Assembly: GCF_000018365.1 (NCBI RefSeq)
Contig: NC_011529.1
Span: forward strand, 744,001 to 808,000
Direction of reading: 5' to 3'
From: Thermococcus onnurineus NA1
GTDB taxonomy: Archaea > Methanobacteriota_B > Thermococci > Thermococcales > Thermococcaceae
Length of the DNA stretch: 64,000 nt
In this document: in pieces, positions 62,173 through 63,989 of the stretch
How positions within the stretch are numbered: position 1 is the first letter of the stretch
How the letters are laid out: each line of letters opens with the position of its first letter
Notes under the pieces: generated by a model
Databases searched by the model: none
What the model was told of the DNA's origin: nothing
The model's input: only the letters and a program-made list of their open reading frames with translations
Translations under genes and position numbers: made by a program

Positions 62173-62697
62173 TCAGAAGTTGAAGTTTATATCTTTCATG
62201 AGCTGGTCGTAAAACTCCTCCTTGTAGACGTCAGGATAGCGCATTATGTAGTCGTACTGCTTCCTCAGCATATTGTAGTGGTTCCTCTCCATGTCAGCGA
62301 GCATCTCAAGGAGAAGTTTGGTCTTTTCGGTGGCTGCATAGCCAGCCAGTTCCTTGTAGAGCTTCTCGCTGATGAGTTCAGCCTGCATGGAAATCTCATA
62401 AATCTCGTCAATGTTTATATCGGGCTTGCTTATAGCTTCAGCCATCTTCTCGGCTACGACCTTGAACTCCCCCATTATGTCTATCTCTATCTTCTTGGGC
62501 TCAACGTTTTCGCCCGTGAACTTTTCGGCCATTCTCTCTATGATTTCCCTGTGTTTGTCCTCCTCCTTGGCCAAGAAAAGGAGTTCGTCCCCTATTATGT
62601 CGCTCTTGACGAGAGAAGCAAGCTTCTCATAGGCCTCCTTGGCCCTAATCTCAGAGTTTATGGCAATCTCAAAAACTTCCTTGTCTGTTATCTCCAC
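62173..62697 (-). CDS. Rubrerythrin-like ferritin-fold protein
   Basis: 174 residues with four helices carrying ligand patterns: AINSEIRAKEAYEKLA, KEEDKHREIIERMAEKF, QAELISEKLYKELAGYA and DMERNHYNMLRKQYDYI. No rubredoxin domain. The best start is GTG 62697 after GGTGATTT; ATG 62709 (no ribosome-binding site) would add four residues. It lies alone between the DOMON/b561 pair and the his operon, divergent from the latter. Fourth related rubrerythrin-like protein in 8 kb. Confidence 0.83.
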   Translation of the reverse strand: MEITDKEVFEIAINSEIRAKEAYEKLASLVKSDIIGDELLFLAKEEDKHREIIERMAEKFTGENVEPKKIEIDIMGEFKVVAEKMAEAISKPDINIDEIYEISMQAELISEKLYKELAGYAATEKTKLLLEMLADMERNHYNMLRKQYDYIMRYPDVYKEEFYDQLMKDINFNF

Positions 62698-62872
62698 GCA
62701 AATCACCATATCTATCTCGCTTTCAAGTCTATTAACATTTTCGATTACATTTTTCGGAAGACCCATAGGCGGTCATTTTGGATATATCTACTAAGTTCCT
62801 CGCGCAGTTTTTAGATATTATGACAAGATTTTCACGCATTGCAGACATCTTGACAGAAAATCATTGGATAGG

Positions 62873-62880
62873 CTTAAATA
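62873..62880 (+). promoter_or_regulatory. TATA box upstream of the CHHH ORF and hisZ
   Basis: CTTAAATA at 62873-62880, preceded by a purine-rich GGATAGG BRE-like region. A TSS near 62903 would leave a leader of about 20 nt with the GGGGTGATC ribosome-binding site before ATG 62922. I see no equally good promoter between this ORF and hisZ. Confidence 0.6.
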
Positions 62881-62921
62881 CTGTAACAAACACTCCTCAA
62901 TCTCAGACTGGGGTGATCAAC

Positions 62922-63023
62922 ATGAAAGACAGGAAAGTGCCCAAAAACTCGAAAATTATATCCACCAAGTTGAACTACTGTAACATATCCGCTTTTCTGG
63001 TGAGCTACTGCCATCATCATTGA
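62922..63023 (+). CDS. 33-residue ORF ending Cys-His-His-His, candidate leader of the his operon
   Basis: Small ORF with TATA box and a strong GGGGTGATC ribosome-binding site seven bases before ATG 62922. The peptide starts MKDRKVPKNSKIISTK, has Cys20 and Cys30, and ends with CAT CAT CAT TGA. It lies 78 nt before the hisZ start with no clear separate promoter. Consecutive His codons upstream of histidine-biosynthesis genes recall bacterial his leader peptides; three is few, and no attenuator hairpin is obvious. It could equally be a small metal-binding peptide. Confidence 0.6.
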   Translation: MKDRKVPKNSKIISTKLNYCNISAFLVSYCHHH

Positions 63024-63101
63024 CTGTTCTGGGACATTTAACCAAGTTATGATCTATTTAGCAGGGGATGTTCTCATTCAAAAGTTCTCGGAGGGGTTAT
63101 T

Positions 63102-63989
63102 GTGAAGAAGGATTTGCTTTCCGAATCAGAGAGGTTAGCGGATATTACAAAATATCTAAGGCGAACATTTGAGCTGTGGGGCTACAGGGAAGTGTTCCTG
63201 CCAACGATAGAGGAATTCAGCGAGGAGCTGAGGAAAGGGACAAAGTTCGTCTACGACAATGAGTTCTACGTAATAAAACCCGATTTAACCTCCCAGATAC
63301 TTGCAAACCTCAAGGAGCCAAGGAGGCTCAAGCTATACTACATCAGCGAAGTGTTGGACGGAGGGATTAGAGGGAAGTGGCAGGCTGGAGTTGAGTTCAT
63401 TGGCGGAGAAGACATCAAAATGCAGGTTGAGGTTCTTTTAACTGTTATAACTTCCCTCGAGGCGCTCGGCATTGAGGACTTTTACATCGACGTCGGCAGC
63501 CTGAAAATCTGGGAGAGCGCCATTAAAGGAATTGAAGAATTTAGGGCAGAGATCTTCAGAGCCCTGACGAGGAGGAACTTCGAAATTATTGAGAGGCTAC
63601 CCATAAGTGAAGAAAAAAAGGAGGAGCTCTGGCAGCTGTTCAACTTCAGAGGAAAGAGCTGCGGATATAAAAAGCTCAACAAAATCATCGATGCCCTTGA
63701 CGACAGGAGGGTCTTCATAGATTTCGGCACGATAAGGCCCCTGCCCTATTACAGTGACGTGATCTTTGAGGTCTATTCTCCAGAGATTGGCAAGCCCTTG
63801 GGTGGCGGAGGCGAGTATATATTCAAGGGTAAAAAAGCCTTTGGATTCGCCTTTGACTTAAATGCACTCTCAAAGCTCTTTAACGGCAAAATAGAGAAGA
63901 ACAGGAAGAGAATTCAGGGGGAGCTAAAGGAAACGTACAAGCTTGCAAAGGAGCTTGTTAAGCTCGGCATTCCAGTGGAGGTGGAATAA
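63102..63989 (+). CDS. hisZ: HisZ, regulatory subunit of ATP phosphoribosyltransferase
   Basis: 295 residues, a catalytically inactive HisRS paralogue. FELWGYREVFLPTIEEFSEE corresponds to class II motif 1 surroundings, KPDLTSQILANL to the motif 2 region, and GGGGEYIFKGKKAFGFAFDL to the end of the core; there is no C-terminal anticodon-binding domain. With short-form HisG it makes the first enzyme of histidine synthesis, sensing histidine. GTG 63102 follows GGAGGGG. The stop TAA overlaps the ATG of hisG (TAATG). First full gene of the his operon. Confidence 0.92.
   Translation: MKKDLLSESERLADITKYLRRTFELWGYREVFLPTIEEFSEELRKGTKFVYDNEFYVIKPDLTSQILANLKEPRRLKLYYISEVLDGGIRGKWQAGVEFIGGEDIKMQVEVLLTVITSLEALGIEDFYIDVGSLKIWESAIKGIEEFRAEIFRALTRRNFEIIERLPISEEKKEELWQLFNFRGKSCGYKKLNKIIDALDDRRVFIDFGTIRPLPYYSDVIFEVYSPEIGKPLGGGGEYIFKGKKAFGFAFDLNALSKLFNGKIEKNRKRIQGELKETYKLAKELVKLGIPVEVE

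Follow-up and report, generated by a model that had tools for sequence, protein, structure and literature searches.

The his operon of Thermococcus onnurineus NA1 is preceded by a short open reading frame (ORF) that ends in a run of histidine codons, and this arrangement raises the question of whether an archaeon controls histidine biosynthesis by translating a leader peptide. The ORF lies near the end of the window, by which we mean the whole 64,000-nucleotide stretch of DNA that was analyzed; the host genome is a single contig of 1,847,607 bases. Our sample for comparison comprised 94 Thermococcaceae genomes. We found hisZ in 47 of them, in one case cut by a contig end, and the upstream DNA of all 47 was read.

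Anatomy of the leader and its operon

A preliminary description of this DNA had reported a TATA box, a Shine-Dalgarno sequence (SD), a 33-codon ORF in which CAT CAT CAT is followed by TGA, and a distance of 78 nt to hisZ. All of these are borne out by the sequence, and the features are placed as follows.

62873 to 62880, plus strand: CTTAAATA, TATA-like element of the promoter for the leader/his transcript; 39 of 47 loci have such a box 5' of the leader ATG
62912 to 62918, plus strand: extended SD of the leader ORF, GGTGATC, complementary to the 16S 3' end GGAGGTGATC; most homologous leader ATGs are likewise preceded by an SD
62922 to 63023, plus strand: His leader ORF, with ATG at 62922, 33 codons MKDRKVPKNSKIISTKLNYCNISAFLVSYCHHH and TGA at 63021 to 63023, recognized from sequence, conservation and a frame open in 47 of 47 loci
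62992 to 63000, plus strand: upstream copy of the CUNUUCUGG motif, here CTTTTCTGG, 5' of GTGAGCTACTGC; kept in most of the alignment and in some clades the alternative best anti-SD segment
63012 to 63020, plus strand: three tandem His codons, CAT CAT CAT, the proposed stall site
63024 to 63030, plus strand: CTGTTCT, a conserved motif just 3' of the leader stop (YUNUUCU), the proposed anti-SD strand
63090 to 63094, plus strand: hisZ SD, GGAGG, recognized from sequence, the proposed target of sequestration
63102 to 63989, plus strand: hisZ, the ATP phosphoribosyltransferase regulatory subunit gene and first gene of the operon (best NCBIfam match TIGR00443 hisZ, E 2e-37, below the curated cut-off)

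The leader peptide ends in VSYCHHH, encoded by a final TAC TGC CAT CAT CAT, and the 78-nt gap runs from the leader stop to the hisZ GTG at 63102. As a control for chance, we counted the SD-preceded ATG ORFs of 10 to 45 codons in the 64-kb window, of which 1 in 120 has HH within its last 7 residues. Past the window's end the his operon, which is complete, continues as hisZ-G-D-B-H-A-F-IE-C, followed by further genes on the same strand; this part was read in L078, and the genes were named from sequence and order. On the other side, a divergent gene for a ferritin/rubrerythrin-like protein (62173 to 62766, minus strand) adjoins the his promoter and weakly matches the model of the iron exporter MbfA, below cut-off.

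The TATA-like box mostly sits 39 to 50 nt 5' of the leader ATG. No conserved TATA-like box was found between the leader and hisZ among the 47 loci, in keeping with the earlier statement that this interval holds no obvious second promoter. Because a TATA-like box precedes the leader ATG and none is conserved in the spacer, the start of the his transcript very probably lies 5' of the leader. In a published study, about 20% of T. kodakarensis mRNAs had long 5'-UTRs of 50 to 300 nt.

Conservation across the Thermococcaceae

The preliminary description had staked its proposal on conservation of the His codons upstream of hisZ in relatives, and these codons are kept at all 47 loci. Searching the 94 genomes with the peptide gave matches immediately 5' of hisZ in close relatives; in others the matches at this position were faint. 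On reading the upstream DNA itself, we observe at every one of the hisZ loci, which span 6 genera, a short ORF with 2 to 4 consecutive His codons at or a few codons from its stop. The endings seen directly before the stop are CHHH, YHHH, YHHHH, CHH, RHH, LHH, CHHHLF, CHHLF, HHPF, HHRLF and FHHI, and a single leader ends in HHHCRLFYN. A His run at the very end, as first described, is found in T. onnurineus and many relatives but not in the CHHHLF, CHHLF, HHPF and HHRLF variants. The gap between leader stop and hisZ ranges from 24 to 80 nt, and in L046, L047 and L056 the start codon chosen automatically is not the one homologous to the ATG in their sisters.

The leader frame is open at all 47 loci; the two other frames are open at 2 and 11, and these and the codon counts below are not independent, as the 47 loci are related. 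Counted inside eight clades of close relatives, the variable sites of the N-terminal part are spread over codon positions 1, 2 and 3 as 42, 45 and 37 (p=0.67), and the amino acids of this part are therefore not under selection. The last eight codons hold 15 variable sites in 64 codons, versus 124 in 167 codons of the N-terminal part, and the third positions of the last leader codons are conserved as well. Judging from this variation, leader translation and the His codons are maintained and the product is not, which is the signature of an attenuator leader. The general arrangement of such leaders is present too, in the form of a translatable short ORF with tandem codons for the operon's own amino acid before a biosynthetic operon.

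The leader His codons are CAT rather than CAC by 116 to 5; in the window's long ORFs (300 aa or more), a set that may contain some spurious ORFs, the same comparison gives 68 to 154. This CAT excess, at 63012 to 63020 and in relatives, might come from a slower reading of these codons at the proposed stall site or from a constraint on the RNA.

The sequence past the His codons is also conserved. Every one of the 47 loci has UUCU in the same frame as the His codons, and the changes in spacing between the His run and UUCU are all multiples of three. The leader stop stands in a UGA-C context in most leaders, and an in-frame CTN-TTC then follows in most. The leader-hisZ spacer is otherwise unconserved. 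We also observe that a Leu, Pro or Arg codon, TTC and T follow the His run in frame at 47 of 47 loci, even past the UGA (63024 to 63030; sites in L031-L077), such that the region past the stop looks as if it was once, or is sometimes, translated. We rejected readthrough from the leader UGA to hisZ, as further in-frame stops intervene in most loci. Near-copies of CTNTTCTG(G) lie on both sides of the His codons in most loci (62992 to 63000 and 63024 to 63031), and each could form pairs with the hisZ SD. TGACTNTTCTR was also considered as a genome-wide element and discarded; the organism's own genome has 7 sites, of which 1 follows His codons.

Such conservation might mean that the block is itself an RNA or DNA element, a protein binding site or anti-SD repeat, in which the ORF is incidental. 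Conserved third codon positions at the leader's end and the two copies of the CUNUUCUG motif that flank the His codons would fit an element of this kind. However, the leader has an ATG and usually an SD, its frame is open in 47 of 47 loci, the spacing between His run and UUCU changes by whole codons, and a second archaeal order, described below, has His codons before its his genes in different flanking sequence. We consider this explanation very improbable. The same holds for the idea that leader translation merely delivers ribosomes to hisZ by termination and reinitiation. The leader stop does lie 5' of hisZ on the same presumed mRNA, and bacterial leader genes are proposed to raise downstream translation (PMC4833913); yet gaps of 24 to 80 nt combined with strong hisZ SDs speak against it, and it leaves the retention of the His codons unexplained.

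A candidate attenuation mechanism and its alternatives

We think it probable that a ribosome-dependent attenuator built on the leader's His codons controls the his operon by sensing charged tRNA-His. That these codons sense histidine we infer from the anatomy of the locus together with the mechanism established in bacteria (PMC9413887). The his mRNA would begin upstream of the leader, which a ribosome would translate. When charged tRNA-His is scarce, the ribosome would stall at the tandem CAU codons and mask the segment at and just past them (CAU-UGA-CUNUUCU). With ample histidine, the ribosome would finish and depart, and the freed segment could then pair with the hisZ SD and start region (GGAGGGGUUAKUGUG), holding down hisZ and the co-transcribed his genes. 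The output may well be this occlusion of the hisZ SD, prevented by a stalled ribosome, rather than transcription termination, and on this point we regard the evidence as evenly balanced.

The evidence on SD pairing points both ways. The motif after the His codons is complementary to the hisZ SD, and register 0 gives the best SD pairing among five registers. The helix formed by CAUUGACUCUUCU and GGAGGGGUUAGUG comprises 13 bp with no mismatch in a nine-member clade (L046-L049, L051-L054, L056), and the window's own clade has a long SD helix with one mismatch, the central base being a G.G or A.G mismatch in this clade and its sisters. Pairing is strong in the L046-type and window clades and weak elsewhere. 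Covariation of the SD helix was not significant in a fixed-register permutation over all species (p 0.08-0.8) or in a duplex energy-swap test (p 0.11), and UUCU is invariant though C/U wobble changes would be tolerated, which counts against the helix. In folding calculations that included a modelled stalled ribosome, the SD became free in only 16 of 47 loci at 37 C and 2 of 47 at 80 C. Ranked as an anti-SD within its own transcript, the segment falls in the top 10% in only 14 of 47 loci and is the best in a minority. The preliminary description had suggested another pairing near the hisZ SD, between GGTTA and a TAACC placed at 63038-63042. The latter lies one base further on, at 63039-63043, and the pairing is not conserved, close relatives having TTTAGCTTGG there.

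The same His stall could instead act on transcription. A departed ribosome would then expose the RNA to termination by FttA/aCPSF1, and a stalled or coupled ribosome would prevent it. Factor-dependent termination in T. kodakarensis works through FttA, whose mutual exclusion with the ribosome has been hypothesized (PMC11616081); departure of the ribosome would expose the conserved pyrimidine-rich motif after the leader stop. A terminator hairpin with U-tract is absent, however, as the longest T run in the spacers is 2 to 5 nt and in the clade folds no consensus hairpin has a T run after it. The missing U-tract speaks against a terminator of the hisL type, not against FttA-dependent termination. 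There is also little room for such an event, some spacers being only 24 nt long, and the lack of other conserved sequence in the spacer further disfavors it. We hold transcription attenuation to be a possible but doubtful output.

It is also conceivable that a ribosome carrying VSYCHHH at a slow UGA-C stop senses histidine, or its absence, through nascent-peptide arrest in the manner of TnaC, and not the supply of tRNA-His. Conservation of the eight C-terminal codons extends beyond the His codons (the variable-site counts given above), and the UGA-C context and in-frame CTN-TTC recur in most leaders. On the other hand, the residues before the His run vary widely (VSYC, VSYY, VTYR, VDYC, VSPC, RVSL, RDSL, MIF), the stop shifts in position relative to the His codons, and the leaders of Methanofastidiosum end in SCTAHHH, SYIAHHH and TSYHHN. 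Arrest of this kind is unlikely in our estimation, and the attenuator that reads charged tRNA-His is the interpretation we carry forward.

Other archaea and relationship to known systems

Methanofastidiosum, which belongs to a second order of the same class, has His leaders before a long-form hisG in 7 of 7 genomes with a readable hisG-operon leader, for example MGIINVNVKFDSSIIISCTAHHH followed by a stop, with variants ending in AHHQ or YHHN. Past the leader stop, ACGCC and GGCGG make up an inverted repeat around a loop, and its 3' arm continues into the hisG SD, GGAGG; folding gives this hairpin as the minimum-energy structure for only some of the sequences. The second hisG paralogue has no such leader (0 of 8 loci). 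The long-form HisG (L167-L201) shares 38-41% identity with HisG of Bacteroidales, where a bacterial His leader, MK..SYHHHHTCRS, is present at most of the matching loci. Because of this resemblance and these leaders, a transfer of the operon together with its control region is possible. Ser-Tyr before the His run is common to the Bacteroidales leaders and many Thermococcales leaders. The Thermococcaceae leader may represent a conserved, terminator-free archaeal stalling attenuator at least as old as the family and possibly shared with Methanofastidiosales, in which a minimal anti-SD at the leader's end is masked by the stalled ribosome; for this broader proposal we see the case for and against as about equal.

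Of 60 hisG loci in other archaeal families none has a His leader, though hisG may lie further inside the operon there and a leader before another first gene is possible; a few frames with internal HH at these loci were discarded as not being leaders. No matching His leader precedes hisS in 16 cases, one of which has an unrelated HH-containing frame. A Trp-rich leader ORF was found before trpC at 0 of 15 loci; the small ATG ORFs at these loci run across the trpC start in another frame and were rejected. Among the Thermococcaceae loci compared, the leader stood only in front of the his operon. The Thermococcaceae trp operons (L087-L101, upstream of trpC) do carry a TGTCCAAA-like motif near the promoter, which is probably a regulator site.

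Papers on archaeal transcription describe attenuation as unknown in archaea, and we found no archaeal leader-peptide attenuator in the open-access literature searched; an earlier description in a subscription journal is possible. If the proposal is true, archaea, with a more eukaryote-like ribosome and no Rho, sense an amino acid by translating a leader peptide. The leader is present in every Thermococcaceae his operon found, apparently including that of the genetically tractable T. kodakarensis, which makes the proposal directly testable.

Among known systems, the enterobacterial transcription attenuator hisL (the Rfam his leader) has a similar layout: the his mRNA there also opens with a small ORF that contains consecutive His codons and precedes the first structural gene. 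Unlike hisL, the Thermococcaceae leader has its His codons at or adjoining the stop codon and belongs with an archaeal ribosome and a TATA promoter. No Rfam family, T-box included, matches 62700-63300 up to E=1. Since the terminator that was looked for is absent and no Rfam family matches, the leader is, by these sequence criteria, not a hisL-type attenuator. The histidine T-box riboswitch, which controls his genes in some bacteria (PMC9413887), differs in that it needs no ORF, and the leader has no T-box match. Attenuators that sequester a ribosome binding site are a described, translational variant of amino-acid-operon attenuation (PMC9413887), and they share with the Thermococcaceae locus a leader ORF and a segment that can base-pair with the first gene's SD; the sequestering structure proposed here is simple, clade-dependent, without demonstrated covariation, and archaeal. 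The Bacteroidales His leader before hisG is bacterial, its His codons are internal, with TCRS after them, and the sequences examined have a hairpin and T-tract downstream of it, but it resembles the archaeal leader in placing tandem His codons after Ser-Tyr.
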